This document shows, piece by piece, positions 28,129 to 52,523 of a stretch of DNA of 64,000 nt. A model generated the notes under the pieces. The model was not told the origin of the DNA. It saw only the letters and a list, made by a program, of their open reading frames with translations, and ran no database searches. Within the stretch, counting starts at the first letter, position 1, and the number at the start of each line of letters is the position of its first letter. This DNA is from Zunongwangia sp. ESRF-bin46 (GTDB taxonomy: Bacteria > Bacteroidota > Bacteroidia > Flavobacteriales > Flavobacteriaceae), in assembly GCA_002631855.1 (NCBI GenBank), contig NTLF01000022.1, forward strand, positions 1 to 64,000, in the 5' to 3' direction. A program made the position numbers and the translations under genes.

Positions 28129-28178
28129 CATTTCAGAAAATTTAATACTAACTACACAAATTAAATAAACAGTACATT

Positions 28179-31022: not shown

Positions 31023-31043
31023 TCTATCTCTTACTTGATTACA

Positions 31044-31075: not shown

Positions 31076-31159
31076 TAAAAAAAACACCGTTTCATCAAAT
31101 TTGAAAAAAATGTTCACTTCCTGTTAACAAAAATGATTTTATGTCCGCAGAATTAATCG

Positions 31160-31167
31160 TATTTTTA
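31160..31167 (+). promoter_or_regulatory. probable -7 element of the parA operon
   Basis: TATTTTTA, one base from TAnnTTTG, 23 bases before the parA start and past the upstream terminator. Confidence 0.4.
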
Positions 31168-31190
31168 GCCTTTAAACCATAACAGACTTA

Positions 31191-31952: not shown

Positions 31953-31961
31953 AAACGATCG

Positions 31962-34157: not shown

Positions 34158-34226
34158 TATTGCATTGTAATTATTAAAAAAATTAGATAAAAAAGAAGAT
34201 ACATATCTTCAGAAAATATATAAAAG

Positions 34227-35801: not shown

Positions 35802-35842
35802 AAAAGAAAAGCATCTCTATTAGCTTAGCTAATTTTGTTGAA

Positions 35843-36463
35843 ATGGAATCTATTTTAGTACATCCTACTTATTTTCCTTCCATCGCACAAATGGTGGCTG
35901 TAAGCCAAGCTGAAAAGGTAGTTTTTGAAGTGGCTGGCAATTACCAAAAACAGTCATACCGCACTCGTGCGTATATTGCACATAGTAATGGAAAGCTGTT
36001 GCTCAACATTCCTATTAAACATACAGGAAAACGTCAAAAGTCTAAAGAAGTTATGGTAGAAAATGATTTTCCTTGGCAATCTCAACACTGGAAATCATTA
36101 GAAACGGCGTACCGCACTTCCCCCTTTTTTGAGTTTTATGAGGACGAACTATATCCGTTGTTTAACGAACCAGCTGAAAGGCTCTTAGACCACAATATCC
36201 GTATTTTTAATACTGTTTGTGAATTAATAGAGTTAGAAGTTCCTATTACTTACACACAAGAATATTTAAAAGAACCTGAAAACAACAAAGACTTGCGCTA
36301 TTTAGCTAAAGCAAAAAACCAAAAAACATTTAATTTAAAGCCTTACAAACAAGTTTTTGAAGCTAACCACGGATTTCTATCAAACCTATCAATTTTGGAT
36401 CTATTATTTAATGAAGGACCCAACACGCTTAACTATTTGCAACAACAGGAAGTTCAGTTTTGA
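35843..36463 (+). CDS. WbqC family protein
   Basis: A 206-residue protein. It has the family start region HPTYFPSIAQMVAVSQAEKV, basic NIPIKHTGKRQKSKE, WQSQHWKSLETAYRTSPFFEFY and LSILDLLFNEG near the end. WbqC-like proteins occur in polysaccharide clusters in other phyla, but in Flavobacteriia they usually sit next to lepB as here, and their function is not established. It converges with bshC, with only 11 bases between the stops. Confidence 0.88.
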   Translation: MESILVHPTYFPSIAQMVAVSQAEKVVFEVAGNYQKQSYRTRAYIAHSNGKLLLNIPIKHTGKRQKSKEVMVENDFPWQSQHWKSLETAYRTSPFFEFYEDELYPLFNEPAERLLDHNIRIFNTVCELIELEVPITYTQEYLKEPENNKDLRYLAKAKNQKTFNLKPYKQVFEANHGFLSNLSILDLLFNEGPNTLNYLQQQEVQF

Positions 36464-36474
36464 GGTTTATTATA

Positions 36475-38067: not shown

Positions 38068-38189
38068 ATAACATTAGAAAATTGACACAAAGGTAACCAC
38101 TTTGCGTGGTTTGTGATTTTAAAGATACGTTAATGTTGGCGGGTTTCAAATTCGAAACTTTTTTGAGATTTCAATTCTATAAATTCAGC

Positions 38190-38197
38190 TATCTTTA
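38190..38197 (+). promoter_or_regulatory. probable -7 element of the M14 peptidase gene
   Basis: TATCTTTA, 25 bases before the start codon; the nearest TTTG is 24 bases upstream, which is a little too far. Confidence 0.35.
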
Positions 38198-38222
38198 ACG
38201 CTTCAAAGAAAAACACATACGA

Positions 38223-40712
38223 ATGAACAAGCTTTTTACTCTCCTCTTTTTATTTGTTTCAACATGTATTTTTGCACAAGTACAATCTCCAGACGAATTT
38301 TTAGGATACAAAATAGGCACTCAGTTTTCGCGTCATGCCGATGTGGTAAATTACTTTCAGCATGTAGCCGATAACAGCAATATGGTTACCTACCAAACGT
38401 ACGGTAAAACTAACGAGCGGCGTCCGCTTACCTATGCCATTGTTTCTTCAGAAGAAAATCTAGCAAATATTGAAACCATTAGAACCAATAATTTAAAAAG
38501 TATAGGAATAGAATCGGGATCTGCAAATCCTGAAAAAGCTATCGTATGGCTTAGTTACAATGTACACGGTAACGAAGCTTCCAGTACCGAGGCAGCAATG
38601 ACAACACTGTACGAATTAATTACTAAAAAGCAAGATTGGTTGCAAAACACCGTCGTAATTATCGATCCATGTGTTAATCCCGATGGTCGTGATCGGTATG
38701 CAAATTGGTACAATCAAGTAAAGGCAACACCTTACAACCCTTCACAAGATGCAACCGAACATCACGAACCTTGGCCAGGCGGGCGTCCTAATCATTATCT
38801 TTTCGATTTAAACCGTGATTGGGCGTGGGCTTCTCAAGTAGAAACACGCCAACGTTTAAAAATTTATAACCAATGGATGCCGCACGTTCACGTAGATTTT
38901 CATGAACAAGGCATTAACGAACCATATTACTTTGCTCCTGCAGCCGAACCGTTTCACGAAATCATTACTCCGTTTCAGCGAGATTTTCAAACACAGATTG
39001 GTAAAAACCACGCCAAGTATTTTGATAAAGAAGGCTGGCTGTTCTTTACACGTGAACGTTTTGATCTGTTATACCCTAGCTATGGGGACACCTACCCTGT
39101 TTTTATGGGAGCCATTGGTATGACCTATGAGCAGGCCGGGCACGGTTTTGCAGGCTTGGGCGTCAATACCGACGAAGGCTTCGAGCTTACGTTAAAAGAC
39201 CGTGTAGCACATCATACCACTACTGGTCTTTCTACCATAGAAGTAGCTTCAAAGAATGCAGCTACATTAACTTCAGAGTTTAAAAAGTTTTTTACCACTA
39301 CTAATTCTAAATATAAAAGCTATGTTCTTACTGGAAAAAAAGATAATATTCGTGCTCTAACCGAACTATTGGACATACACCAAATACAATATGGATACAC
39401 CAATAGCGGCTCGGTAACGGGATATAACTATGCCGATGCCCAAACAGGCTCTATAAAAGCTGAGAACGCTTTGGTAGTGAGCACCAACCAACCAAAAGGT
39501 AAAATGGTAAAAGTATTGTTCGAGCCTAAAACAAAACTATCCACTCCCGTAACGTATGATATTACCGCGTGGAGCCTGCCGTATGCGTATGGGTTAGATG
39601 CCGTAGCAAGTACATCGTTGGTTTCGGCTAATGCCAATCCGCTTACTACTTTTAAAACTAATACTGCTGTTTCAAGCGCAGCAGGTTATATTGCTAAGTG
39701 GAACAGTATGTATGATGCTATTTTTTTAGCTGACTTACTGAAACATGACATCCGTGTGCGGTTTTCTGAAAAGAAATTAAGCTTTAATGGTAATACATTT
39801 GACCGTGGAAGTTTGATTATTACTCGAAGTGACAATAAAAGCAATTCAGCTTTTGATACAACGGTAACCAAACTTGCCAATAAGCATAAGCGTGAGTTAT
39901 ATGCTTCTAGTACCAGTTTTGCTGATACGATGACCGATTTTGGTTCGCCCGATATTAAAGTAGTGAACAAACAGCGTATTGCTGTATTGCAAGGCGAAGG
40001 TACTTCTTCGTTAAGCTATGGTACCATTTGGCATTTCTTTGAAAAACAGTTAGAATACCCTATTACCTCAATCAACACCGATGATTTTGATGATATTAAC
40101 CTAAGTAACTATGATGTATTGGTCATGCCGAGCGGATGGTATGGTAGCGTTTTAGGTGATGACATGTTTAATACGCTAAAAGATTGGGTTCGTAGTGGAG
40201 GAAAAGTAATAGCCATTGGCAATGCAGTACGCAGCTTTAAAAACAAAGATGGGTTTGCTCTTCAATTAAATGATGATGAATCTAAAGAAGAAAGCACAGA
40301 TTCAACCAAAAAAAATAACCTCACCCCTTACGATCAACGTGAGCAGGAAGGTACGGAAAACATGATAACAGGAAGTATCTTTAAAGTAACCATGGACCCT
40401 TCACACCCAATGGCTTTTGGGTACGGCGACAACTATTTCAGTTTAAAATTGGGAAGCACCTCGTATCGTTTTTTAGATTCTGGGTATAATGTTGGATACA
40501 TTAAAGGCGAAGCAGAAAACGTTTCCGGATTTGCAGGCAATGAAGCTAAAAAAGGCTTGACCGACTCTTTGGTGTTTGGTGAAGACCGTATTGGTCAAGG
40601 TTCGGTAGTATATTTGGTAGATGATGTGCTGTTCCGTTCGTTTTGGCAAAACGGAAAACTACTGTTTGTAAACAGTCTGTTTTTTGTAAATAACAATGCT
40701 TTTACCCTTTAA
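38223..40712 (+). CDS. M14 family zinc carboxypeptidase, exported
   Basis: An 829-residue protein with a signal peptide (MNKLFTLLFLFVSTCIFAQ). The M14 domain (about 25-350) shows His-x-x-Glu zinc ligands in VHGNEASSTEA, DPCVNPDGRDRY, the substrate Arg/Asn segment DLNRDWAWAS and HVDFHEQG with the third zinc His. The C-terminal part (about 560-800) resembles a glutamine amidotransferase-like beta/alpha domain (NYDVLVMPSGWYG, SGGKVIAIGNAVR), seen in large Bacteroidota M14 proteins. Likely involved in extracellular peptide degradation. Confidence 0.93.
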   Translation: MNKLFTLLFLFVSTCIFAQVQSPDEFLGYKIGTQFSRHADVVNYFQHVADNSNMVTYQTYGKTNERRPLTYAIVSSEENLANIETIRTNNLKSIGIESGSANPEKAIVWLSYNVHGNEASSTEAAMTTLYELITKKQDWLQNTVVIIDPCVNPDGRDRYANWYNQVKATPYNPSQDATEHHEPWPGGRPNHYLFDLNRDWAWASQVETRQRLKIYNQWMPHVHVDFHEQGINEPYYFAPAAEPFHEIITPFQRDFQTQIGKNHAKYFDKEGWLFFTRERFDLLYPSYGDTYPVFMGAIGMTYEQAGHGFAGLGVNTDEGFELTLKDRVAHHTTTGLSTIEVASKNAATLTSEFKKFFTTTNSKYKSYVLTGKKDNIRALTELLDIHQIQYGYTNSGSVTGYNYADAQTGSIKAENALVVSTNQPKGKMVKVLFEPKTKLSTPVTYDITAWSLPYAYGLDAVASTSLVSANANPLTTFKTNTAVSSAAGYIAKWNSMYDAIFLADLLKHDIRVRFSEKKLSFNGNTFDRGSLIITRSDNKSNSAFDTTVTKLANKHKRELYASSTSFADTMTDFGSPDIKVVNKQRIAVLQGEGTSSLSYGTIWHFFEKQLEYPITSINTDDFDDINLSNYDVLVMPSGWYGSVLGDDMFNTLKDWVRSGGKVIAIGNAVRSFKNKDGFALQLNDDESKEESTDSTKKNNLTPYDQREQEGTENMITGSIFKVTMDPSHPMAFGYGDNYFSLKLGSTSYRFLDSGYNVGYIKGEAENVSGFAGNEAKKGLTDSLVFGEDRIGQGSVVYLVDDVLFRSFWQNGKLLFVNSLFFVNNNAFTL

Positions 40713-40787
40713 ATTAAACTCTTAAAATAGTGTAAAACAGCCTATAAAAGTATGCACTTTATAGTACCTTCGGAAAAAAGAAGTATT

Positions 40788-41591
40788 ATGAAACGTATAT
40801 TTTTACTTACCCTAACGGTGCTGTTTTTTGCAGCCTGTAATAATTCAGAAAAGAAGAAAACGGAAGAAGCTTCCATGACTGCGGAAACGGAACAACCTAA
40901 AAAAATGGAGGAACCCGCTTCCGAAGATTTTATAGACATCACCCCTATTGAGCACGCCACGATGGTATTGCAATGGGATGACACAGTACTTTATGTAGAC
41001 CCTGTTGGCGGTGCTAAAGCTTTTGAAGGCCAGCCAAGTCCCAATATAATATTGGTAACCGATATTCACGGCGACCATATGAATGCCGAAACCATTCAGG
41101 CTGTACTAACCGAGAACACCAAACTCATTGCCCCACAAGCCGTAGCCGATAAACTACCAAAAGCATTACAAGAACGAGTTCAAGTAATGAACAATGGTGA
41201 AAGTGCCATACATTCTAATATTGCCATAGAAGCCATCCCAATGTACAACCTACGTGAAGAGGCCTTGAAATTTCATAAAAAAGGACGCGGTAATGGTTAT
41301 ATCCTTGAAAAAGATGATAAGCGGGTATATATTTCCGGAGATACAGAAGACATCCCAGAAATGCGCAACCTAACCAATATTGACATTGCTTTTGTATGTA
41401 TGAATTTACCCTACACCATGCCAGTTGATAAAGCTGCCGAAGCCGTTTTAGCCTTTAAGCCCAACGTAGTATATCCATATCACTTTAGGGGTACAGAAGG
41501 GCTAAGCGATGTTAGCAAGTTTAAAGATTTGGTAAACAAAGGAGACGAATCTATTACGGTAACCCAATTGGATTGGTATCCCAATCAATAA
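40788..41591 (+). CDS. MBL-fold lipoprotein hydrolase, UlaG-like
   Basis: A 267-residue lipoprotein. I start at the ATG at 40788 because MKRIFLLTLTVLFFAAC then gives an ideal lipobox (Cys17); an upstream in-frame ATG at 40752 would place 12 polar residues ahead. The beta-lactamase-fold motif reads TDIHGDHMN, so the first His of HxHxDH is an Asp here, while the second His, Asp and third His remain. Later ligands are probably Asp of ISGDTED and His of YPYHFRG. The substrate is unknown; UlaG relatives include lactonases and phosphodiesterases. Confidence 0.85.
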   Translation: MKRIFLLTLTVLFFAACNNSEKKKTEEASMTAETEQPKKMEEPASEDFIDITPIEHATMVLQWDDTVLYVDPVGGAKAFEGQPSPNIILVTDIHGDHMNAETIQAVLTENTKLIAPQAVADKLPKALQERVQVMNNGESAIHSNIAIEAIPMYNLREEALKFHKKGRGNGYILEKDDKRVYISGDTEDIPEMRNLTNIDIAFVCMNLPYTMPVDKAAEAVLAFKPNVVYPYHFRGTEGLSDVSKFKDLVNKGDESITVTQLDWYPNQ

Positions 41592-41608
41592 AAAATAGAT
41601 TAGTTTTA

Positions 41609-41642
41609 TATCAAAACCATTACTTTCGTAATGGTTTTGATA
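41609..41642. repeat. 15-bp perfect inverted repeat ahead of the XRE gene
   Basis: TATCAAAACCATTAC (41609-41623), 4-base loop TTTC, then the exact reverse complement (41628-41642). It lies 17 bases after the lipoprotein stop and 9 bases before the XRE start codon. It lacks a long T run. It could be a terminator, an operator for the adjacent regulator, or both. Confidence 0.75.
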
Positions 41643-41651
41643 TTATAAACA

Positions 41652-42191
41652 ATGACCAAACTAACCCAATACCGAGAACAACATAACTTAACACAAGAAG
41701 AGCTAGCTGAAAAAGCTGGCGTTTCGGTGCGCACTATTCAACGTATTGAAGCGGGTGCTACCCCAAAAGGTTATACCTTAAAAACACTTGCTTCGGTCTT
41801 AGGTGTAGCTGAAGACGCCTTACGAGCAACTACCCCAGCAGAACCCCTCCCTACTCCTCATTTAGTTAAAATAATCAACCTATCATCGTTGGCATTTTTT
41901 ATACTTCCGTTTGGGAATATTATCCTACCGCTTATTTTAATGCACTATAAAAAAGAAGTGAATACGCTTACCAAACAAATTGTTTCTGTCCAAATACTTT
42001 GGACTATCATTTCAAGTGTTCTTATAATGTTAAGTCCTTTTATTCAAAAGTGGTTTTCCCTGACCAGACAACTTATCCTCATTGTAATTATAGTTTGTGT
42101 TCTTACCAACCTATTTATTATTATTAGGAATACCGTTTCCTTAGACCAACAAAATAAACTATATATTAAACTGAATTTCAGCTTTATATAA
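41652..42191 (+). CDS. XRE-family HTH protein with membrane domain
   Basis: A 179-residue protein. The N-terminal lambda-type HTH covers about residues 5-55 (HNLTQEELAEKAGVSVRTIQRIE). After a proline-rich linker come three or four hydrophobic segments (about 73-94, 108-130, 135-160) resembling the DUF4870 kind of C-terminus. It is probably a membrane-tethered regulator. The strong inverted repeat immediately upstream is a candidate autoregulatory site. Confidence 0.85.
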   Translation: MTKLTQYREQHNLTQEELAEKAGVSVRTIQRIEAGATPKGYTLKTLASVLGVAEDALRATTPAEPLPTPHLVKIINLSSLAFFILPFGNIILPLILMHYKKEVNTLTKQIVSVQILWTIISSVLIMLSPFIQKWFSLTRQLILIVIIVCVLTNLFIIIRNTVSLDQQNKLYIKLNFSFI

Positions 42192-42298
42192 ACTTGTCAT
42201 AAAAATGTCGGGCTATTGTCGGCTATGCTTTTACTACTTTCTGAAAGAACTTTCTGAAAATTGTATTTCGTTTTAACATTAAAAAAACTACACCTACT

Positions 42299-43813
42299 AT
42301 GCAATATTTTCAAAATTTATGTACCGTAATTTTTATAGTTATTGCAGCACAAACCAATGCTCAAATACCTACAAATTCTTCTATTTTTAATGCATTAAAA
42401 AAAGCAGACAGCCTCGTCTTTACAGAAGGGTTTAATCGTTGTAATTTTTCCGCACTTAAAAAAATATTACATAAAGATCTTGAGTTTCTACACGATCAAA
42501 ATGGAACTCAGGATTTAAATCAATTCTATGAGGCATTTACAAAAAGTATTTGTTCAGACTCTACTTTTAAGCCCATTCGTAAATTAATTCCTGAAACACT
42601 ACAAGTATTTTCTTTACACAACAAAGGACAACTCTATGGAGCCATACAAACAGGTGATCACGTGTTCTACATTAAAGAACCAAATAAAGATGCCTATGCT
42701 ACATCAAAAGGAAAGTTTATTCATACTTGGGTTTTAGAAAACGAACAATGGAAATTAAAACGTATCGTAAGTTACGAACATGCCCCACCAGAGGAAGAGT
42801 ATGGAGCCAAGTTTAATGCAGATTACATTTTACCCTTATTTAACAATGACCATACCATTGAGACCTTATTAAAAAAACATCAAATCCCATCTATCTCTAT
42901 TGGTTACATTAAAAATGGAGCATTACAACAAATACGTGCATTTGGCTCTAAAAAAGAAGGCAAACCTGTTACACACAATAGCCTGTATAAAATAGCGTCA
43001 TTAACAAAACCCATTTGTGCAATAGTAGTACTAAAACTAATTAATAAAGAGGTTTGGAGTTTAGATGAACCCGTTTCTACTTATTTTGTCGATCCCGATA
43101 TTGCAAATAGCCCATATATGAACACGTTAACAACTCGTCATATATTATCACATCAATCAGGGTTTCCTAATTGGAGGTACCTCACAGCAGATAAAAAACT
43201 AGCGTTTCAGTTTGAACCTGGCACCCAGTTTCAATATTCGGGAGAAGGATTTGAGTATCTTCGAAAAGCAATAGAACATAAACTAAACCGCCCTTTTGAA
43301 GCTATCGCTACTGAAATACTCTTTGAGCCTCTTGGTATGGATAATACTCATTTTTATTGGACTCCAGAAGTCAATGAAGACAAGTATGCAGTAGAGCATA
43401 ATGAACAAGGTAAACCTATTGCTTTTAAAAAGTACACCCGTATTAATGCCGCTGCAAACGTAATAACGACAGCTGAGGACTACTCTAAATTTCTGCTTCA
43501 TATATTGGATGGTGCCGGACTATCACAACCCCTGTATCGATCATTTATTTCAACACAAGCCAATCAACAAAAAGGAATAGATTGGGGGCTCGGTATGCAG
43601 CTGCTATCTGGACTACCCAATAATGAGCTTGCTATTATGCATACTGGTGGAGATTACGGAACTAAAACCATTGCTATTCTATTACAGGAATCTAAACAAG
43701 GGTTGGTTTTGTTTACCAATTCTGAAAACGGTATGGTACTATGGCAAAAGATTATAACTGAATACTTTGGAGATATAGGAAAAGAAATAGTTACCAGAAA
43801 TTTACAAGAATAA
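42299..43813 (+). CDS. exported serine hydrolase (class C beta-lactamase fold) with NTF2-like domain
   Basis: A 504-residue protein with a signal peptide (about 1-22). Residues 30-165 look like a DUF4440/NTF2-like domain (FNRCNFSALKKILHKDLEFLHDQNG ... LENEQWKLKRIVSYEH, shown as segments). The serine hydrolase domain follows: Ser234-x-x-Lys237 in SLTK, the YSGEGFEYL tyrosine motif, and MHTGGDYGT near the end in place of KTG. The fold is that of AmpC, EstB and D-aminopeptidases. True beta-lactamase activity is unlikely without KTG; peptidase or esterase is more likely. Confidence 0.88.
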   Translation: MQYFQNLCTVIFIVIAAQTNAQIPTNSSIFNALKKADSLVFTEGFNRCNFSALKKILHKDLEFLHDQNGTQDLNQFYEAFTKSICSDSTFKPIRKLIPETLQVFSLHNKGQLYGAIQTGDHVFYIKEPNKDAYATSKGKFIHTWVLENEQWKLKRIVSYEHAPPEEEYGAKFNADYILPLFNNDHTIETLLKKHQIPSISIGYIKNGALQQIRAFGSKKEGKPVTHNSLYKIASLTKPICAIVVLKLINKEVWSLDEPVSTYFVDPDIANSPYMNTLTTRHILSHQSGFPNWRYLTADKKLAFQFEPGTQFQYSGEGFEYLRKAIEHKLNRPFEAIATEILFEPLGMDNTHFYWTPEVNEDKYAVEHNEQGKPIAFKKYTRINAAANVITTAEDYSKFLLHILDGAGLSQPLYRSFISTQANQQKGIDWGLGMQLLSGLPNNELAIMHTGGDYGTKTIAILLQESKQGLVLFTNSENGMVLWQKIITEYFGDIGKEIVTRNLQE

Positions 43814-43858
43814 TGAGCTACTTCTATAAAATACATATATCGTACTAATTGTGAATCT

Positions 43859-44407
43859 ATGACATCCATCAACATCACTTTTAAATACATGTTAGCTACG
43901 TTCGCTGCTGTATTTTTTACATGGCTAATTCACGAGTTTGCACATTGGAGTATGGCCGAAGTTCTTGGGTATACAGCTAATATGGCCTTAAACGGCACCT
44001 CGTTTGTAGCTGGGGAAGATCCTAGCACAGGGCAGCGTATCATCATTTCAGCGGCGGGACCTGTAATTACCATAATACAAGCAATTGTGGTTTTTCTATT
44101 CTTAAACTATAAACGGTGGAATCAATACCTATATCCTTTGCTATTTACTGCTTTTTATATGCGATTGTTAGCTGGAGGTATGAATGTCATCAACCCAAAT
44201 GATGAAGGCCGTATTAGTCAGTTTTTAGGATTGGGCACCTACACCATACCGGTATTAGTTAGTGCCTTTTTACTGTATTTGGTGTACAGGGTTGCCAAAC
44301 GTCACCAACTTTCTTGGAAGCTTCAAGCTACCACTACCCTATTGGTCATGGTTTTTAGCTCTATTCTTATTCTTTTAGATCAATTTTTAAGTGTTCAATT
44401 GCTATAA
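43859..44407 (+). CDS. M50-like membrane metalloprotease
   Basis: A 182-residue membrane protein with HExxH (His25-Glu26...His29 in LIHEFAHW) at the end of the first span, like site-2 proteases. Further spans lie at about 60-80, 90-105, 122-142 and 155-175. GGMNVINPNDEGRIS may supply the third zinc ligand, corresponding to the NPDG-like motif. Short stand-alone members of this type are of unknown function. It is the last ordinary gene before the repeat-rich region. Confidence 0.78.
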   Translation: MTSINITFKYMLATFAAVFFTWLIHEFAHWSMAEVLGYTANMALNGTSFVAGEDPSTGQRIIISAAGPVITIIQAIVVFLFLNYKRWNQYLYPLLFTAFYMRLLAGGMNVINPNDEGRISQFLGLGTYTIPVLVSAFLLYLVYRVAKRHQLSWKLQATTTLLVMVFSSILILLDQFLSVQLL

Positions 44408-44630
44408 AAACCGAGTGTTTTCCTGCCTTCACTCTAGTTTGCTTCGGGGTTTCTTCGCAAAACGTCCTTTTTTGGAAAATAGCCCCAACCCGTTCCCGAA
44501 GGATCCCCGAAGGAAACCCGAACAAAACCCCTTAAAATTTGGGTATAATCTGCATATGTCGTCACATGAATGCAGAGGAATGCAAATACCTTCATGTACC
44601 ATCACAGATTTGCAGCTCTTACCAGACTCG

Positions 44631-44670
44631 GTCAATCGTCGTCAAACTCCGTCATTTGTTGTCAATTGGC
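44631..44670 (+). repeat. four GTCA-starting direct repeats in 10-base phase
   Basis: GTCAATCGTC, GTCAAACTCC, GTCATTTGTT and GTCAATTGGC follow one another without gaps. One repeat per helical turn suggests an array of protein-binding sites on one face of the DNA. Confidence 0.6.
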
Positions 44671-44793
44671 TGCAAGTTGTTGGGGAATATGAAAGGTTTG
44701 ATTAGCTTTAAACCACGGATATACCTGCTTTTAGGAAAAATATTCGTTTGATGTATCGCTTAAAAAAACGAAACAAAAACCTATTTACAAGAT

Positions 44794-44823
44794 TTTGTAA
44801 AGTGGAATTTTTAAGTATATTTG
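44794..44823 (+). promoter_or_regulatory. Bacteroidota promoter of the 44985 lipoprotein gene
   Basis: TTTG (44794-44797), 18 bases, TATATTTG (44816-44823): both boxes match the consensus exactly. The leader to the start codon would be about 155 bases. A near copy occurs at 45621-45650. Confidence 0.75.
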
Positions 44824-44984
44824 GCGGCAATTTAACTTTTTATTAAGATTTCAAAGCTTTAACCCCAAACACTAATTACCCATTTTAAACCCATACAATA
44901 AACCAAACATACTACTAAAGGCTATGCCTTTTTGTGGTGGGTTATTTATTACCATAAACAAAAACCAATATTTAAATTAAACAG

Positions 44985-45590
44985 ATGAGAAGTATTAAGA
45001 TTACCCTACTATTAATTTCAGTTATTATAGCAACAAGTTGTGCCTCTGGGTATAAAATGATTGAACCAAAATCAATTAATTATGTTTCAAGAAACGAAAA
45101 CAATGGAGCAAAACTAGAGTACAAATATGATTTGCTCGATAAAAAGTATGCAAAAAAAGAAGTAAAAAAAGGGGTAAAGTTAGTGGCTGTTAAAATAACG
45201 AATGAGTCTGATAGGGACTTAATGTTTGGAAGGGAAATTAAACTTACTTATGAAAACGGAAAGGAAATAGTGGCCATGGAAAACGACAAGGTGTTTAAAT
45301 CCTTAAAGCAAAGCCCAGCTTCTTATTTGTTTTATCTTTTGTTAACCCCTTTAAATTTATACACATCAAGTTCAGATGGCGACACAAGTTCTACGCCTAT
45401 AGGGCTAGTAATTGGACCTGGCCTTGCCGGCGGAAACATGATTGCAGCCGGGTCTGCAAACAAGAAATTTAAAACAGAGCTTTTAGAGTACAACATCAAT
45501 GGAACCCTAATTAAAAAAGGCGAAACCAAATATGGACTGGTAGGAATAAAATCTGACTCTTTTGATGCTTTAAAAATAAAAGTGGAATAA
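44985..45590 (+). CDS. hypothetical lipoprotein
   Basis: A 201-residue lipoprotein (lipobox ATSC at residues 17-20). The mature part is rich in Lys and Glu, with a NESDRDLMFGREIKLTYENG segment that suggests a beta-sandwich, and a hydrophobic glycine-rich stretch (GLVIGPGLAGGNMIAAG, about 140-157) that could touch a membrane. No family recognised. First unit of the repeat-bounded region; it has its own promoter. Confidence 0.8.
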   Translation: MRSIKITLLLISVIIATSCASGYKMIEPKSINYVSRNENNGAKLEYKYDLLDKKYAKKEVKKGVKLVAVKITNESDRDLMFGREIKLTYENGKEIVAMENDKVFKSLKQSPASYLFYLLLTPLNLYTSSSDGDTSSTPIGLVIGPGLAGGNMIAAGSANKKFKTELLEYNINGTLIKKGETKYGLVGIKSDSFDALKIKVE

Positions 45591-45620
45591 AAACAAGAGC
45601 CGCAAGAAAAGATATATGAT

Positions 45621-45650
45621 TTTGTGAGTTGCGTTTTTTAAGTATATTTG
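45621..45650 (+). promoter_or_regulatory. Bacteroidota promoter of the CBS-HEPN gene
   Basis: TTTG (45621-45624), 18 bases, TATATTTG (45643-45650), exact in both boxes. The segments GATTTTGT and TTTTTAAGTATATTTG are shared with the promoter at 44794-44823. Confidence 0.75.
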
Positions 45651-45690
45651 AGACAGCACTCCCCTTTTAAATTAATATAGTAAGAACACT

Positions 45691-45776
45691 TTTTCTAGTT
45701 AGTACTGCGCATAGCATGCCAAATAGAGGAACTAACAGCGGAAAAACCGTTCATATAAACAAGTTGTGTGTAATGC
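45691..45776 (+). repeat. cassette-boundary element B (left of CBS-HEPN gene)
   Basis: An imperfect hairpin: TTTTTC (45690-45695) and GTTAGT (45698-45703) on the left arm, ACTAAC (45731-45736) and GAAAAA (45741-45746) on the right. It ends with CCGTTCATATAAACAA and then GTTGTGTGTAATGC (45763-45776), which is the inverted mate of GCACTACACACAAC after the gene (46626-46639; 13 of 14 bases). Confidence 0.55.
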
Positions 45777-45790
45777 GAAAAAAAATATAG

Positions 45791-46624
45791 ATGGGATTTG
45801 AACTTTGGTACTCAAAACATACAGGAATTAGAAGAAAAGGAACATCTTTTTCCGAATTACAAGACATATTTATCGATGACATTACCGCCAAATACATTTT
45901 TGAACCATTAGCTTGTTGCCAAATAACTGACAACCCATTTGAAGTAAAAAACACGCTCAAACAGAGAGATTTTGATACACTTGGTGTTGTAGATGATAAT
46001 GGAGTTAAACTCGGATATATCGTAAGAGAAAAACTCGGAGAAAAAACGATTGACAATTATCTTGAAAAATTTGATATAGAAATTGTTATATCGGAATCCA
46101 CACCATTATCGGAACTTTTTGAAATTCTACTTGAAAAAGAGTATGTATATATTTTGAGTAAAAACACTATTGATGGAATTGTCACTCGTGCAGACATTAA
46201 CAAACCTATAGTTAGAATTTATCTTTTCGGATTAATATCACTATTCGAATTACATTTAAATTATTGGATAACCCAAAATTATGACAACGAATCTTGGATA
46301 GATGTTTTAAAACAAGTAAGAATTGAATCCGCAGAAAAAATCTTTAATGAAAGAAAAGGGAATAATGTACAATTGACTTTGTTAGAATGTATTCAAATGT
46401 GCGACAAGAGAGATATTTTACGAACTACTGATGATTTTATAAAAGAATTCGACTTTACGAAAAACGGATTTGAAAGGCTTCTTAAAGATGTTGAAAAAAT
46501 AAGAAATGAATTAGCTCATAGTCAAAATTCAATAATAGCAAATTTGGAATGGACTGTCTTTGTGAATACAATTAAAAATGCAAAAGAGTTTTTAGTAAAG
46601 TCCGAGGAAAAAATTGAAAAATAA
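45791..46624 (+). CDS. CBS-domain protein with C-terminal HEPN-like RNase motif
   Basis: A 277-residue protein. Residues 15-135 look like a CBS pair, a nucleotide-sensing module (FDTLGVVDDNGVKLGYIVREKLG and EYVYILSKNTIDGIVTRADINK as the two cores). The helical C-terminus contains Arg238-Asn-Glu-Leu-Ala-His243, the Rx4H motif of HEPN RNases, in IRNELAHSQ. A nucleotide-gated RNase for stress or phage defence is a reasonable guess, but this RxxxxH motif also occurs in non-nuclease HEPN proteins. The gene is bracketed by a 14-bp inverted repeat, with no partner antitoxin gene in the same unit. Confidence 0.72.
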   Translation: MGFELWYSKHTGIRRKGTSFSELQDIFIDDITAKYIFEPLACCQITDNPFEVKNTLKQRDFDTLGVVDDNGVKLGYIVREKLGEKTIDNYLEKFDIEIVISESTPLSELFEILLEKEYVYILSKNTIDGIVTRADINKPIVRIYLFGLISLFELHLNYWITQNYDNESWIDVLKQVRIESAEKIFNERKGNNVQLTLLECIQMCDKRDILRTTDDFIKEFDFTKNGFERLLKDVEKIRNELAHSQNSIIANLEWTVFVNTIKNAKEFLVKSEEKIEK

Positions 46625-46625
46625 A

Positions 46626-46771
46626 GCACTACACACAACAATGTATAATCGCAATTACGGCGGATTCGACTACGTCCGAATCCACTCGGAATTGCGAGCG
46701 TCAGTGCCAAACCGAAAATTAACGCATATTAACCCGTAACTGACGGTTATACGAGACCGTTACCCACAATT
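46626..46771 (+). repeat. cassette-boundary element C
   Basis: It runs from GCACTACACACAAC (46626-46639) through AATGTATAA to CGAGACC and GTTACCCACAATT (46759-46771). Inside are nested inverted repeats: GTATAA/TTATAC, TCGCAATT/AATTGCGA, GGATTCG/CGAATCC and CGTCAGT/ACTGACG. The core 46644-46758 aligns with 51386-51499 at about 74 percent identity by hand. The right end is the inverted mate of the segment after the next gene. Confidence 0.8.
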
Positions 46772-47917
46772 ATGAGAAAAATACTGCTGACATTAATAAT
46801 CTGCTTTTTGAGTCTAATTAATTATGCTCAAGAAAATATCACATCTGAATTAGAAAAAATTTATGGAGACGAAAAATATGATTTGATTATTTCCGAGCAT
46901 TCTGAAAAAGTAAACGACTATCCCGCAAAAGCAGTTTACTATGTTGCTATGGCTTATTATATGAAAACGAATGACAATAAAGTATTGGAATTAATGGATT
47001 TGTCTATTCAAAAGGACAAAACCGACCCTGATGCATATTTTATTAAAGGAATGACTTTTAATTATATGGGACAATTTGACAAAGCAATTGAATCTTTCAG
47101 TAAAGCAATCGAATTAGATTCCACAAACTCAAATTACTTCAGCGGTTTAGGAGATTCATATATTAGTCAAGAAAAATATAAAGACGCACTAACAGCATAT
47201 ACTACTGCAACTGAAAAAAAAGAGCCGATTGACCGACCATTTACAATGATTCCACAAATTTATGCTGAACTGAATCAACCTGAAAAGGCTTTAGAGGCCT
47301 TTTATAAATCAAAACAAACCATATCAAAAGAATCTGATTCATATATAAACGCATTATATAATATCGGACTTTACGAGTTTCTAAATAAGGAATTTGAAAA
47401 ATCCGAAATTGCTTTTAAAGAACTAATTGAATTAGTACCAAATGATTATCATTCAATTTCAAAGCTGGTTCAAGTTTATTATGGGCAAAAAGAATATGAG
47501 AAAACTAAACCTCTAAAAGAAAAATTATATAAGGCTTATAACCAAGGCAAACTCAAAGACAATTTAAAAGACCAATTTTGCTTTGACCAATTTGATTGGG
47601 AAGATAAGTACATTTTTGCGTTTGAAAGGTTTGCAGAAAAAGAAGGAAAACTTTATTACAAACACATTTTTCACGTAACAGACAAAGAAAATGGAAAAAC
47701 CAAATTTACCATTCAAACTGAGAACTCGCCAATTTCAGTTGAGTTAGGTGGACCAAAATATGTTCTTGGAATGGATAAAAATGGAACTCATTCAACATTC
47801 AGATATGGATTTGAAGAAGACTTCAATTACGAAGATTTAAAAAAGACAGTGCTTCTTGTCCTTGAAAAGAAAATTAAGGCTGGAGCGAGTTCAAGACCAA
47901 CTAAAAAGAATAAATAA
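46772..47917 (+). CDS. TPR protein, exported
   Basis: A 381-residue protein with a signal peptide (MRKILLTLIICFLSLINYAQ) and six or so tetratricopeptide repeats over about 25-260 (AYFIKGMTFNYMGQFDKAIE, YFSGLGDSYISQEKYKDAL). The C-terminal 100 residues are a beta-rich part (FDWEDKYIFAFERFAEKEG) that I do not recognise. The gene is bracketed by a perfect 13-bp inverted repeat (46759-46771 and 47920-47932) lying directly against the start codon and 2 bases after the stop. This marks it as one unit of the array. Confidence 0.85.
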   Translation: MRKILLTLIICFLSLINYAQENITSELEKIYGDEKYDLIISEHSEKVNDYPAKAVYYVAMAYYMKTNDNKVLELMDLSIQKDKTDPDAYFIKGMTFNYMGQFDKAIESFSKAIELDSTNSNYFSGLGDSYISQEKYKDALTAYTTATEKKEPIDRPFTMIPQIYAELNQPEKALEAFYKSKQTISKESDSYINALYNIGLYEFLNKEFEKSEIAFKELIELVPNDYHSISKLVQVYYGQKEYEKTKPLKEKLYKAYNQGKLKDNLKDQFCFDQFDWEDKYIFAFERFAEKEGKLYYKHIFHVTDKENGKTKFTIQTENSPISVELGGPKYVLGMDKNGTHSTFRYGFEEDFNYEDLKKTVLLVLEKKIKAGASSRPTKKNK

Positions 47918-47919
47918 CT

Positions 47920-48017
47920 AATTGTGGGTAACAATGGCTATAAGTAACTGCTTGTTCTCGCCTACTTAAGTGCTAACTCATGCAACTACTCATGGCCGAG
48001 ACCATTGTGGCACATTT
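47920..48017 (+). repeat. cassette-boundary element D
   Basis: Left end AATTGTGGGTAAC (47920-47932), exact reverse complement of 46759-46771. Then AATGGCTATAA, a variable middle, and GGCCGAGACC (47994-48003) followed by ATTGTGGCACATTT. AACAATGG at the left pairs with CCATTGT at the right (48002-48008). It shares the TATAA and GAGACC boxes with element C. Confidence 0.75.
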
Positions 48018-48029
48018 GACCAAAAATCT

Positions 48030-49007
48030 ATGAAACAAAAAATTACTCTACTTTTATCCTTATTCTTTTCACTTGCAATTTACAGTCAAATTGATTCAAC
48101 AAAAATTGCCTTTATTGCATATTGGTCAATAGGCGATGATTACGATTTTAAAGTATCAAAAGTCAAAAGAGAATGGAAAAATGATGTGTTAACCAAAAAA
48201 GATTCATCGCAGTATATTGCAAATTTTAAAGTTTTAGATTCTACAGAAGAATCATATAAAATTCAATGGACGTATAAAAACAATATTGTAAGTACATTTC
48301 AAGAGAAAGCTGAAAAAATATTCGAAGACAAAGAAGCTGTCAATCAAATTCTCAAAAAAAATGACCTCTCAAAAGTAATTTATAAAACAAATGAACTTGG
48401 AGAATTTATTGAAATTTTAAATTGGAAAGAGTTAGGAGAATCAACAAAATTATTGCTGCAAGAAATGCTAAATAATTTTGAAAAAAAGAATCCAGAAAAA
48501 GTTAACGAATTAAGAAATGCTATGAACCCAATTATTGATATATATAGTTCTAAACAAGGTCTCGAACAATTGGCGATTAAAGAACTTCAATATTTTCACT
48601 CTCCATTTGGACTGGAATACGATATTACAGAGCCAATTGAATATAAACAAGAACTTCCGAATGTTTTGGGAGGTGAACCAATTTTGGCAGATGCTACGCT
48701 AACCTTTGAGGAAGTAGACTTTGAAAATAGCTTTTGTTCATTGAAAGAGGAGACTGTCATAAATCCAGATGATACCAAACGAGTAGTTCAAGAATTATTC
48801 ACGAGAATGAAAATTGACGAATCAAAAACTGACAACACTTTCGATAATGCAGTTTTTGATATAACAGATTTAAACTACTATCAATATTATTTTTATCCAG
48901 GAGTACCCCATTACATTTATGGAGGTAGAAAGTTCGTTTTAAAAATGGAAAAAACAGACATAGAAAAAATTGAAGAACTTTATATTGAGTTAATTTACGA
49001 TGAATAA
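48030..49007 (+). CDS. hypothetical exported protein
   Basis: A 325-residue protein. The start at 48030 is chosen because MKQKITLLLSLFFSLAIYSQ is a clear signal peptide. A longer in-frame start at 47970 would translate part of the boundary element and hide the signal. The mature protein is charged and probably mixed alpha/beta (QWTYKNNIVSTFQEKAEKIF, EYDITEPIEYKQELPNVLGG). No family recognised. No other gene lies between its two boundary elements, so it forms a single-gene unit. Confidence 0.8.
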   Translation: MKQKITLLLSLFFSLAIYSQIDSTKIAFIAYWSIGDDYDFKVSKVKREWKNDVLTKKDSSQYIANFKVLDSTEESYKIQWTYKNNIVSTFQEKAEKIFEDKEAVNQILKKNDLSKVIYKTNELGEFIEILNWKELGESTKLLLQEMLNNFEKKNPEKVNELRNAMNPIIDIYSSKQGLEQLAIKELQYFHSPFGLEYDITEPIEYKQELPNVLGGEPILADATLTFEEVDFENSFCSLKEETVINPDDTKRVVQELFTRMKIDESKTDNTFDNAVFDITDLNYYQYYFYPGVPHYIYGGRKFVLKMEKTDIEKIEELYIELIYDE

Positions 49008-49010
49008 AAA

Positions 49011-49060
49011 AATGCCAAAACAACATATATAGCTCATTGCAGCTTGTTTTTCGTAAAGAT
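49011..49060 (+). repeat. cassette-boundary element E (partial)
   Basis: AATGCCAAAACAACATATATAGCTCATTGCAGC after the gene (given here as 49011-49043 in two parts: AATGCCAAAACAAC and ATATATAGCTCATTGCAGC) matches the left-end pattern of the other elements and is roughly the inverted mate of TTGTGGCACATTT before the gene. AAAACAA pairs with TTGTTTT at 49045-49051. The right-hand GAGACC box is missing, so this copy looks degenerate. Confidence 0.5.
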
Positions 49061-49105
49061 CCAAATACAAAACCAAATCAAATAATTTAAAATATAAATG
49101 TACAA

Positions 49106-49756
49106 ATGAAAAAAATTACAATTATCAGTTGTTTAATATTACTAACTACCAGTGTTTTTGGGCAAGATAGTACCACAGAATTTGGTATTAAAGGTGGAAT
49201 AAATTACTCAAAGCATACCCCAAATATTGAAGTTAACGGTGTAGAAGCGTTAGATTTTAATCGAAAAGTTGGTTTTTATGTTGGGGGTTATGCTAATTTT
49301 GAGATTTCAGATATTTTAAAGTTGCAACCTGAATTACTTTTTGCATTGCAAGGTACAAACACCTCAACCGAAATCGAAATTAGAGAATCTGCTGATCAAG
49401 CACCAATGCTCGCCGAATTTAAAACAAGCGTTACCGAATCAACTATTTCCCTTCCAATAATGCTCCAACTATATCCGTCAGAAAATTTTTATTTTGAAAT
49501 TGGTCCGCAATTAGGATACATTGTAAGTAGAAAGGATAAATTTACAGAGAATCCATTTTCGGAACCAGGAATGCCATTAGGGATTAGTGAAGGTTGTCCA
49601 AGTTGTGATAAGTTTGATTTTGGTGCCGCTTTAGGTATTGGATATAATTTTACAAATCAAATTGGAATTAATGCTCGATATTTTGCTGGACTAATTGAGC
49701 GAAACAATACAATAAAATCATCTGTTATAAATCTGGGCGTTAATTACAAGCTGTAA
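49106..49756 (+). CDS. PorT-family outer-membrane beta-barrel protein
   Basis: A 216-residue protein with a signal peptide (MKKITIISCLILLTTSVFGQ) and the outer_membrane_beta-brl_2/PorT pattern: EFGIKGGINYSKHTP, VGFYVGGYANFEISDILKLQPELLFALQG split over two strands, ENFYFEIGPQLGYI, and a last strand SSVINLGVNYKL ending at the C-terminus. Two close cysteines in EGCPSCDKFD are unusual in such loops and might form a disulfide. A barrel of eight strands is likely. Role unknown. Confidence 0.88.
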   Translation: MKKITIISCLILLTTSVFGQDSTTEFGIKGGINYSKHTPNIEVNGVEALDFNRKVGFYVGGYANFEISDILKLQPELLFALQGTNTSTEIEIRESADQAPMLAEFKTSVTESTISLPIMLQLYPSENFYFEIGPQLGYIVSRKDKFTENPFSEPGMPLGISEGCPSCDKFDFGAALGIGYNFTNQIGINARYFAGLIERNNTIKSSVINLGVNYKL

Positions 49757-49759
49757 ACT

Positions 49760-49919
49760 ATTGTAACAACGTATTTAAAATACTACTATTACAGACTTTC
49801 TCAAAGGCTTATGTGTATTTTTGCAGACAGACAAATTTTTAAACTTGGCTCTTGTATAACCCGAAAAGTCAGCGTCTTTTTATACGCTACGTTTCATATA
49901 CATAACTGTTGTGCGCAAT
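49760..49919 (+). repeat. cassette-boundary element F
   Basis: Left end TTGTAACAACGTAT (from 49771), right end ATACATAACTGTTGTGCGCAAT (49898-49919), with AAC...GTT at the tips. Inside, GTATAA (49855-49860) and TTATAC (49880-49885) pair. The sulfotransferase gene downstream is followed by GCATACACATTTTGTATAA, an approximate inverted mate of the right end. A -7-like box TATTTTTG lies at 49816-49823. Confidence 0.55.
49816..49823 (+). promoter_or_regulatory. possible -7 element within boundary element F
   Basis: TATTTTTG is an exact TAnnTTTG match about 110 bases before the sulfotransferase gene, with no good -33 box. Confidence 0.4.
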
Positions 49920-49928
49920 AAAAAATAC

Positions 49929-50702
49929 ATGAAAATGAATAAGCGACAAATTAAAAAAGTACTTGAAAAAACATTAAACATTAAGGTTAGTCGTCTAAAA
50001 AACAATGAAGGAAAAATGACTTCCTTAGTTATTAATGAGGCTATCAATTTTGAAAAAGAAGTTATTTTTATTGCAATTCCCAAGACTGGTACAACTTCGG
50101 TAAGAACACAATTAAAGCAACCTGGAATACCGATAATTGAGAATCCTCATTTAGACATTTCCCAAATTCAAGACTTAATCTATATTTATTTACTTAAAGA
50201 GAACCTTGGAACAAACAGGACTTTCCCGAATGGCAATATTGCAAATGATGAAGAATTAAGACAAGAGGCAGAGAAAATATTTAACTCTTTTTTTAAATTT
50301 TCAGCAGTTAGAAACCCATGGGCGAGAGCAGTCTCTTTATACAGTAGAAGAGAAGGCATAAAATTAAAAGATAAAATTACTTTTGACGAGTTCTGTGAAA
50401 ACCACTTCTACGCAAGTGATACATGTTTCCACCCAACCTTGCATAAAAATCAAATAGACTGGTTGACTTCAAATAACGGAAAACTTTTAATGGATTTTGT
50501 GTATAAAGTTGAAGAGTATGAGAATGCTATTGATGAGATTAGTAAAATAACTAATGGTCGCTTATTATTAGATAATGTTAAACGAAATGTAAACCCAAAT
50601 TCAAAGTCCAGTGACTATCGGAACATGTACAATGATAAAACACGAAAAATAATAGAAAAACGATTTGAAAAAGATATAGATTATTTCAAGTATACATTCT
50701 AA
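49929..50702 (+). CDS. sulfotransferase family protein
   Basis: A protein of about 257 residues that transfers sulfate from PAPS. The 5'-phosphosulfate loop is FIAIPKTGTTSVRTQL (near residues 46-61). The 3'-phosphate-binding motif is SAVRNPWARAVSLYSRR (about 127-143). I choose the ATG at 49929 (or 49935) because a GTG at 49911 overlaps the boundary element F repeat. Carbohydrate sulfotransferases of this type modify surface polysaccharides. No glycan genes are nearby, so this single-gene unit would act in trans. Confidence 0.87.
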   Translation: MKMNKRQIKKVLEKTLNIKVSRLKNNEGKMTSLVINEAINFEKEVIFIAIPKTGTTSVRTQLKQPGIPIIENPHLDISQIQDLIYIYLLKENLGTNRTFPNGNIANDEELRQEAEKIFNSFFKFSAVRNPWARAVSLYSRREGIKLKDKITFDEFCENHFYASDTCFHPTLHKNQIDWLTSNNGKLLMDFVYKVEEYENAIDEISKITNGRLLLDNVKRNVNPNSKSSDYRNMYNDKTRKIIEKRFEKDIDYFKYTF

Positions 50703-50711
50703 CAATAAACT

Positions 50712-50792
50712 AAAGCATACACATTTTGTATAAGTAATGGCAGTCACCTTTTTCAGCCCTACAATTTTTATACAAGACCATTATAACACACT
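50712..50792 (+). repeat. cassette-boundary element G
   Basis: A compact copy. TTGTATAA (50726-50733) is the exact reverse complement of TTATACAA (50768-50775), and TAATGG (50735-50740) pairs with CCATTA (50778-50783). The right end reads ATACAAGACCATT, the same box as in C, D and H, and the next start codon is at 50793. Confidence 0.7.
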
Positions 50793-51356
50793 ATGAGAAA
50801 AGCCCTAATAATATTAGTAATTATTCTAACTTCAAATATAACCTACGCACAATTTATAAAGGAAAAATCAATCAATGCTCAAATTGGGTATGGGCTGAGT
50901 GCGCCGTACAATAGTAATGATGATTTCGTCAATGATGGATTTTTTGCACAAGGAGAGTTGGTGCTTAAGGTCACTTCCTGGGTTGAGTTTAGACCTTATG
51001 TAGGTTTCATTTTAACAAGCTCAGATGGAAAAGACTTAAATGACAATCCAACTGATGAAAAAGCGGAATCAAAGGCCTTGTTGCTTGGCGGAAAGGCAAG
51101 AGTTAGGGCACCAATCCCTTGGGTAGCGCCTTATGTTGAAATTGGAATAGGAACTTCGATTGGAAAATTTAATACACTAACAGCGTTTGATGACATCGAT
51201 AAAGGCGGAATTATTTACCATATTCCCTTCTCATTTGGAGTGGAGTTGGGAAAAAATAATAACGTTGATTTAGGGTTTGCTTATTACTTTCAGCCATCTG
51301 TTGAACAATTTGTTGGAGCGTTGGCTGTTGGAGTCACATTTCCGTTGAAAAATTGA
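50793..51356 (+). CDS. outer-membrane beta-barrel-like exported protein
   Basis: A 187-residue protein with a signal peptide (MRKALIILVIILTSNITYAQ) and alternating hydrophobic strands (INAQIGYGLSAPYN, WVEFRPYVGFILTSS, WVAPYVEIGIGTSIG, NVDLGFAYYFQPS) ending in VGALAVGVTFPLKN. An eight-stranded barrel is likely. No named family recognised. The start codon lies 13 bases after the AAGACC box of element G. Confidence 0.78.
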   Translation: MRKALIILVIILTSNITYAQFIKEKSINAQIGYGLSAPYNSNDDFVNDGFFAQGELVLKVTSWVEFRPYVGFILTSSDGKDLNDNPTDEKAESKALLLGGKARVRAPIPWVAPYVEIGIGTSIGKFNTLTAFDDIDKGGIIYHIPFSFGVELGKNNNVDLGFAYYFQPSVEQFVGALAVGVTFPLKN

Positions 51357-51686
51357 AGCTAAAATAAAAATGCCGGATAATAATATATAACCCTAATTAC
51401 GACGGATTTGACTACGGCTGAACACAATCGGAATTATCAACGTCAGTATCAAACTGAATAAATTCGTACATTTATCCGAAACTGGGGTTCTACGAGACCT
51501 TTAGAAAGTATTATAAACAACCTGTAAAGATTATATCATTTAGGTTATCTAAATTCGCTGGAGCGTATTTAAAATGTTTCTTTTTTTTACGTAAAGACCA
51601 GGCAGCTGTGCCAGCAAAGATAACAATCAAACACCCAATGAAGTTTTGTGTAGAAATTACACAAAGGTTTTAAAAAGAAATTTGTT
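51357..51686. other. 330-base gene-free stretch with boundary element H
   Basis: The left half (51372-51514) is boundary element H. The right half (51515-51686) has no coding signal; it contains a possible hairpin TTTTGTGTAGAAATTACACAAAGG at 51641-51668 (stem TTTGTGTA/TACACAAA), about 20 bases before the next start codon. Confidence 0.6.
51372..51514 (+). repeat. cassette-boundary element H
   Basis: Core 51386-51499 aligns end to end with 46644-46758 of element C with about 30 differences and one gap. Shared blocks include AATTACG-CGGATT-GACTACG, TCGGAATT, CGTCAGT and CTACGAGACC. AACCC (51389-51393) pairs with GGGTT (51485-51489). The inner stems of C (TCGCAATT/AATTGCGA) are partly lost here, so this copy is more decayed. 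Confidence 0.75.
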
Positions 51687-52523
51687 ATGAACAATTTAGC
51701 TACTAATTTAAAAACCATAGCAAACAAGACCCCCATAATAAAACCAGTTAAAGATTATCTTGTAAGTAAAGTAAGGGACTTTCAATATGAAAAGATAAAA
51801 TCCGATTCCGCTAAACATATTTACCAAATCTACGGTGTTAGAAGGTCGGGGAATCATGCCATCATTGAATGGATTATAGAAAACTCCCCTTCTAGTGGCT
51901 TTTTCTGTAATGATGTTTCCCTTAATCATTCCCCTAAAAGTGCTAGAAGGAGAAAAGCTTTTTATGGGGAAAAGCCAAATATTCTAATGGTTTCTTACGA
52001 AAATATTAAAACTGATTTTATTAATAACATAACCTGCAATGATGTTGGGGAATACAAGAATTTAAAGAATATACTCATTCTTAGAGACCCTTTCAATCTT
52101 TTTGCAAGTTGGTATAATTGGGAAATGTTTTTTGGGGAAAAATTTAGAGAGAATAGTACATATAGAGAATCAGTTGTTGACACTTGGATTCAAAATGCCA
52201 AACTATATTTAGAATTACAGCAGATTAAGAACCCAAACCTTCTAGTTATTAACTATAACAGCTGGATGGCAAGTGCGGACTACCGAATTAAATTGTCCAG
52301 GCAGCTCGAAATAAACGAGACTAATAATTTATATGACAAAACACCCGTTTTTGGGCAAGGTAGCTCGTTTAAGAATGATTCCGATCAAGAACTTACGCGA
52401 CTGAACAGGTTTTTGAAGTTTAAAGATGACCCTGTATTTAGATCAATATTCAATAATGAAGTATGGAGCCTTTCCAATAAAATTTTTGGAGAAATCCAAA
52501 ACTCAAACGTGCTAAAACCATAG
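51687..52523 (+). CDS. sulfotransferase-like P-loop protein
   Basis: A 278-residue protein. YGVRRSGNHAIIEWII (about residues 49-64) looks like a sulfotransferase 5'-phosphosulfate loop of the RSGNH type, and ILILRDPFNLFASWYNW (about 130-146) like the 3'-phosphate-binding helix. It differs clearly from the sulfotransferase 2 kb upstream, so the two are not a recent duplication. No signal peptide. Function inferred from the two motifs only. Confidence 0.72.
   Translation: MNNLATNLKTIANKTPIIKPVKDYLVSKVRDFQYEKIKSDSAKHIYQIYGVRRSGNHAIIEWIIENSPSSGFFCNDVSLNHSPKSARRRKAFYGEKPNILMVSYENIKTDFINNITCNDVGEYKNLKNILILRDPFNLFASWYNWEMFFGEKFRENSTYRESVVDTWIQNAKLYLELQQIKNPNLLVINYNSWMASADYRIKLSRQLEINETNNLYDKTPVFGQGSSFKNDSDQELTRLNRFLKFKDDPVFRSIFNNEVWSLSNKIFGEIQNSNVLKP

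Follow-up and report, generated by a model that had tools for sequence, protein, structure and literature searches.

What unites six consecutive genes that share one orientation but little else? In the window, by which we mean the whole stretch of 64,000 nucleotides analyzed here (Zunongwangia sp. ESRF-bin46, contig NTLF01000022.1), we found six open reading frames in a single orientation between positions 45791 and 51356, with palindromic elements in between, as a preliminary description of this DNA had it. ORF calling and Pfam gave, in order, a CBS-domain protein, a TPR protein, a protein of unknown function, an outer membrane beta-barrel, a sulfotransferase, and another protein of unknown function. 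We believe, with a probability of roughly 0.9, that the six genes are a partly decayed array of an integron-like gene capture system of Bacteroidota. Sequence comparison bears out the site class, its structure and orientation, the linkage to a recombinase, the position of attI, the pairing of unit ends, and precise transfer.

In our model, a chromosomal tyrosine recombinase of about 360 to 390 amino acids would be transcribed toward an adjacent attI-like site, and genes would travel as circular cassettes, in most cases a single ORF with a site of about 125 nt. Within the circle, the bottom strand would fold so that the two cassette ends pair as its outer stem, made up of the AAC/GTT core and then 7 to 10 cassette-specific pairs. 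The recombinase would insert the cassette at GTT, either in attI or beside another site. The window array would have lost its integrase, with an intact recombinase and an attI-like site lying elsewhere in the genome.

The array in the window

The window array is a partly decayed cassette array without an integrase, decaying from cassette 3 onward (Table 1). Units 1 and 2 each carry unit-specific terminal inverted repeats, overlooked in the preliminary description, and all seven variable end positions are paired in each of them (chance, 0.006 per unit). Across cassettes 3 to 6, end pairing is lost.

Table 1. Features of the window array and its left flank
Feature	Position	Strand	Remarks
Left flanking gene	44985-45590	+	201 aa, no Pfam family; kept in congener G542
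attI-like remnant (element A of the preliminary description, about 45691-45766)	45718-45765	.	ends CCGTTCATATAAACAA, then GTT
Window array, whole	45763-51502		old cassette array, integrase absent, attI-like remnant in front
Cassette 1	45763-46758	+	GTTGTGTGTAATGC (start box, 45763); GCACTACACACAAC (end box, 46626-46639); element B follows
Cassette 1 ORF	45791-46624	+	277 aa, CBS domain
Element B	46637-46761	+	attC-like site, well formed; bottom strand predicted to fold
Cassette 2	46759-48003	+	start box GTTACCCACAATTA; end box TAATTGTGGGTAAC at 47919-47932; then element C
Cassette 2 ORF	46772-47917	+	381 aa, TPR
Element C	47930-48006	+	attC-like site, center shortened
Cassette 3	48004-49021	+	ORF 48030-49007, no Pfam family; decayed boxes, 5/7 paired
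Element D	49019-49078	+	degenerate site; E 0.43, alone not significant
Unit 4 gene	49106-49756	+	OMP_b-brl_2 outer membrane beta-barrel
Element E/F	49765-49910	+	attC-like site
Unit 5	49908-50726	+	sulfotransferase ORF 49929-50702; GTTGTGCGCAATAA as start box, no end box left; 0/7 paired
Element G	50708-50782	+	degenerate site with AAGACCATT; E 0.57, alone not significant
Unit 6	50780-51381	+	ORF 50793-51356; boxes decayed; 87% identical unit in congener G542
Element H	51379-51502	+	attC-like site closing the array

We searched with R1, a covariance model from 25 sites (24 relatives and window element B). On the window it matched B with an E value of 3e-20 (by construction, B itself being among the model sites), H with 2e-11, E/F with 1e-6, and C with 2e-6. 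The preliminary description had proposed a model from C, D, G, and H. These were not the best set: the full-length sites are B and H, and D and G proved degenerate. The right-hand boxes were where that description placed them, GAGACCGTT in B, GAGACCATT in C, AAGACCATT in G, and GAGACCTTT in H. The left box said to be shared, AACAAnnTATAA, is present in B and roughly so in D and E but not in C (AACAATGGCTATAA) or G. Element A, which had been counted among the repeats, does not belong to the site class; its ending is that of the attI-like sites in Algibacter (CCATATAAACAA followed by GTT) and in genome G121 (TTCATATAACTAA followed by GTT).

Is anything at this locus still mobile? The array might be a dead fossil of a system that is real elsewhere, a question limited to this locus that leaves the general explanation untouched. 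A search upstream of the array gave no integrase remnant, and neither an integrase nor a remnant lies near it, in line with the earlier statement that the window has no IntI. The lost pairing in cassettes 3, 5, and 6 and the degenerate elements D and G also speak for a fossil. Against this, cassettes 1 and 2 retain perfect boxes together with elements B and C, and the same genome has an intact recombinase on contig C2. In the congener G542, the left flank is homologous up to 45726 and the right flank is common from 52494; between them the proximal part is wholly different, with other genes inside, while the last cassette is common to both. We regard a dead locus as possible, at somewhat less than even odds.

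Unit ends, predicted site folding, and the adjoining recombinase

In integron cassettes, only in the free circle can the box at the start (R') pair with the one at the end (R''). We examined units picked by element similarity, with end pairing not a criterion, and excluded AAC and GTT from the pairing counts, as these had served to place the borders. All six variable positions paired in 380 of 469 units (shuffled expectation, 6.3). The mean number of paired positions per unit was 5.45, compared to 2.13 ± 0.06 after shuffling; some loci overlap, so that a few units were counted twice, but the effect cannot stem from this. The two ends of one element did not pair (2.17 versus 2.11 shuffled, in the first set of 170 units). 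Thus, complementarity links the two ends of a gene unit and not those of an element, the hallmark of a cassette that forms a circle and folds its site. From this we infer that the cassettes circulate as circles.

At position 10 after GTT, the start has A and the end usually has C, a mismatch (A·C) on the top strand and a wobble (T·G) on the bottom one. At other positions, nearly paired units had 48 mismatches that were G·T on the bottom strand, 2 that were G·T on the top strand, and 120 of other kinds. The bottom strand folded better than the top strand in 182 of 187 elements, and the predicted fold contains a 3-nt bulge. Covariation of the basal stem scored 0.449 (0.139 shuffled; slid controls, ≤0.16), with 85 double-change cells versus 28 shuffled. 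The folded bottom strand is the putative substrate. GTT stood at the border in 169 of 170 units, the borders having been searched as CGTT or CATT, and the core triplets AAC and GTT were invariant in the 25-site alignment. After GTT comes a purine in 96%, and the next bases are free. The preliminary description was right that the ends do not fit the R box consensus RYYYAAC/GTTRRRY; we find GTTR followed by free, cassette-specific bases instead.

The units themselves resemble integron cassettes in being mostly one ORF in one orientation. Counting the longest ORF per unit where it had at least 60 amino acids (112 units had no such ORF), we found 347 along the array and 10 against it. In the median, this ORF starts 32 nt past GTT, stops 15 nt before AAC, and fills 89% of the unit.

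A search for a tyrosine recombinase near any such array, which the preliminary description had suggested, was successful both in related arrays and in the genome itself, where an intact gene lies on contig C2 (3862-5025, minus strand). Recombinases similar to the C2 protein are found at the upstream end of fetched arrays and in the same direction as the array. Named hosts with this layout include Seonamhaeicola aphaedonensis, Winogradskyella ursingii, Algibacter onchidii, Flavobacterium aciduliphilum, Zunongwangia mangrovi, and Algoriphagus ornithinivorans, and the layout also occurs on a Persicobacter plasmid. By a hand tally of genome-wide recombinase and site searches, the 133 genomes with sites included 99 with the recombinase (E below 1e-45), versus 2 of the 16 genomes lacking sites (p ~2e-6); in the other 34 of the 133, no recombinase of this type was detected at this stricter cutoff. 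We think it probable that this recombinase does the chemistry.

Two loci are arranged differently. At locus L133, an exception, the detected sites face away from the recombinase. Contig C2 has a similar back-to-back layout, and there a recombinase fragment precedes the second array.

Had the first cassette of an array entered at attI, its end box would have to recur, as the reverse complement, just after the integrase. We found an exact 9-nt match 44 to 174 bp past the recombinase stop in 17 of 27 arrays, compared to a mean of 0.96 and a maximum of 6 when boxes were permuted among arrays (2000 trials). An exact box within 200 nt was not found in the other 10 of 27. Just before GTT, these sites are of two types, either a palindrome (e.g., ATAAACGCAATTGCGTTTATCCAATT followed by GTT), which stops a few nucleotides short of GTT, or CATATAACCA followed by GTT. 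The C2 recombinase has its own attI-like sequence, GTTCTACGC, 45 bp after the stop. As in an integron, attI thus appears to lie beside the recombinase, with the first cassette apparently inserted there.

A case of movement is a 787-nt unit for what appears, from the protein sequence, to be a secreted superoxide dismutase. It is 99.57% identical in genome G101 and W. ursingii, which belong to different genera (16S identity, 90.96%) and have recombinases on different tree branches. Identity begins between C and GTT and stops at the next GTT, and the neighbors are unrelated. Many repeated units end 3 to 4 nt past the G of the next GTT. Cassettes appear to exchange with exact borders as those of integrons do.

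Known systems and alternative explanations

The system has much in common with IntI integrons, including the Vibrio superintegrons and those of Treponema. A tyrosine recombinase adjoins the insertion site, the core triplets are AAC and GTT, single-gene cassettes form long co-oriented arrays (arrays without integrase also exist among integrons), and the site is predicted to be structured on the bottom strand, with an outer stem split across the cassette ends. Unlike in integrons, the R box is GTTR with free cassette-specific bases, strand asymmetry comes from G·T wobbles and the 3-nt bulge, and one attI type has a palindrome just before GTT. In integrons, intI usually diverges from the cassettes, Treponema being an exception; in integrase-adjacent arrays of the new class, recombinase and cassettes run in the same direction. 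Treponema integrase and cassettes likewise run in one direction (PMC3607928).

Could this be an ordinary IntI integron that diverged in Bacteroidota, its recombinase an IntI that standard models miss? The Treponema layout would agree with that, and the integron integrase model TIGR02249 was the second-best NCBIfam model for the five array recombinases scanned. Its scores of 202 to 213 bits fall below the 265-bit cutoff, however, and the match breaks at the IntI insertion (I2), which is missing from the catalytic domain; the match to NF040815 was about 220 bits. IntI4 is, together with XerA, among the closest folds, and it is also among the closest solved sequences in a PDB search, in which XerA scored 133 bits. 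A published survey found the insertion incompletely conserved in its integron-like subgroup (PMC8138268), which would also favor a diverged IntI. The array recombinases keep all catalytic residues (RKHRHY), but their Lys-to-His spacing is 64 to 65 amino acids in nearly all and 69 in one, versus 105 to 107 in nine true IntI proteins and 70 to 72 in the XerC/D-like proteins of the same genome. Most also carry an additional 90 to 120 residues or so at the N terminus, predicted to form a small beta-beta-alpha-beta-beta-alpha-beta domain for which we found no Pfam family.

In a first tree of 85 proteins, the array group needs two label changes because of L133. For a second tree, four Spirochaetota IntI proteins were added and L133 and many unlabeled relatives left out, a selection that favors a clean result. 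In it, IntI is a single clade (100/100), grouped (93/97) with Xer-like proteins of archaea and Patescibacteria. The array recombinases form a separate group outside it (81/89), and both groups fall on one side of a branch. Together with the site boxes, this makes a diverged IntI unlikely. A reading of the elements as MITE- or REP-like repeats, dispersed between genes with no cassette mechanism, is highly improbable, even though they are palindromic, mutually related, and in some cases decayed. All elements of an array lie on one strand, the genes fill their units in one direction, and a dedicated recombinase with an attI-like site stands at one array end. We reject ordinary repeats as a general explanation because the pairing joins the ends of gene units and not those of elements.

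The system works like an integron, with a recombinase, an attI-like site, cassettes with predicted folded sites, and exact exchange, but since its recombinase has no I2, has an extra N-terminal domain, and stands outside the IntI clade, it is not an IntI integron. With two defining features absent (IntI with its insertion and the GTTRRRY box), we call it an integron-like system. An origin of its own is favored by the tree, which is unrooted and whose members were chosen for their resemblance to the query. In that case, the capture of cassettes through folded single-stranded sites would have arisen independently of IntI, in a Xer-like Bacteroidota lineage that had no I2 and gained an N-terminal domain, giving a second kind of integron now found in most Flavobacteriaceae; we consider the chances of this evenly balanced. 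The I2 helix has been credited with enabling recognition of folded single-stranded sites (PMC4792948). As a recombinase without I2 appears to use such sites here, the need for I2 becomes directly testable.

XerA, XerC, XerD, and other simple tyrosine recombinases are nearest in sequence and catalytic core, although the array recombinases differ from Xer in their N-terminal domain and shorter Lys-His stretch. The substrate of Xer proteins is double-stranded dif, and they are not known to be linked to cassette arrays. Xer/dif modules are flanked by 28-bp dif-like XerC/XerD sites and recombined by the host XerC/XerD, unlike the sites of about 125 nt here, which are tied to their own recombinase. 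We set aside a phage origin: the exact site 16-mer occurred in only 2 of 2.9 million viral contigs, and the recombinases on viral contigs are similar only from about residue 111 on, with the N-terminal domain absent.

Distribution and cargo

The elements are by no means restricted to this locus. R1 matched in 133 of 149 family genomes sampled (117 of 125 among those of good quality), and the family genomes without a match are mostly small, under 2 Mb. As a DNA query, element B was found in 89 of the 149, at up to 97% identity. The genome itself has about 64 sites, with arrays on contigs C2, C6, C11, C15, C18, and C20 besides the window contig, C21. The longest arrays have 96 sites in 78 kb (G113) and 90 sites in 77 kb (G068), on a single strand in each. 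Phylum-wide, 103 of 392 genomes had a match at E ≤ 1e-5, a tally that takes single weak matches as scored. The preliminary proposal, a chromosomal cassette system with a site class of its own, is thus upheld: family and phylum have hundreds of these sites in arrays of one orientation, a recombinase dedicated to them stands at the attI end, cassettes carry single ORFs, and sharing between genera is precise to the cassette. Its limitation to Flavobacteriia was too narrow, as relatives occur in Cytophagia, Bacteroidales, and Sphingobacteriales.

An Rfam search with the element returned no family, and element B had no DNA match among annotated plasmids and phages. A strict pattern of AACAAnGTATAA and GAGACCGTT with a gap of 30 to 60 had no match in the genome itself, as this gap is too short for the sites. 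Our search of the literature, excluding preprints and most subscription papers, found no published description of the system. In its passages on Bacteroidetes, the IntegronFinder 2.0 paper calls integrons rare in this phylum and lists integrase-only elements, known from an earlier study, and a single complete integron, that of Salinibacter ruber M1 (PMC9024848). Those passages name no complete integron in Flavobacteriaceae, the family in which, by the named relatives, the present class is widespread. The S. ruber integron was found with IntegronFinder, which relies on its IntI and attC models. Against this reported rarity stand sites in about nine-tenths of the sampled family genomes and arrays of up to 96 sites. 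With many Bacteroidota arrays and a recombinase other than the integron integrase, such gene capture looks far commoner in the phylum than reported and may have originated more than once.

The system could explain much of the accessory gene turnover in these bacteria. A Pfam scan of 94 cassette proteins gave 41 families, most with one member, among them immunity protein 7, ParE toxin, TIR effector, and MepB-like families. The cargo also includes Cass2, a Pfam "integron-associated effector binding protein."

The array and its genome

A 20-kb part of the window is identical to the last 20 kb of another contig of the same genome, C12, and this identity stops at 46640, within the first bases of element B, the attC-like site after the first cassette. 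The assembly forks here, at a cassette site, owing either to a repeat effect or to two array forms in the sample. Contig C2 carries a back-to-back pair of arrays (L090), the first with an intact recombinase and the second preceded by a 57-residue recombinase fragment.

Beyond element H, the last site of the array, and before the conserved right flank comes another sulfotransferase-like gene, the second of its kind. This gene is missing from the congener G542, in which homology to the window restarts at 52494. It is possibly a cassette that has lost its site.

Coordinates of the features discussed
Feature	Positions	Strand
Window part shared with C12	window 26641-46640	
Matching end of C12	G000:C12:717221-737220	
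Second sulfotransferase-like gene	window 51687-52523	
Paired arrays, L090	G000:C2:1795-13226	first minus, second plus

Recombinase relatives and cassette cargo

A recombinase encoded by a Spirochaetota MAG (L137; 36% identity) is extended in a similar way at its N terminus; no sites of the window's class were detectable in that genome. The 395-kb plasmid CP012862.1 of Persicobacter sp. JZB09 (L189) encodes a recombinase of the array type (40% identity), and two weak sites lie downstream of it; a plasmid is therefore also among the carriers of the system.

Immunity, toxin, and TIR-effector genes, kinds known from anti-phage defense, are found among the cassettes of the long-array genome G068 (L036-L040) and of the window's own genome (alignment A5).
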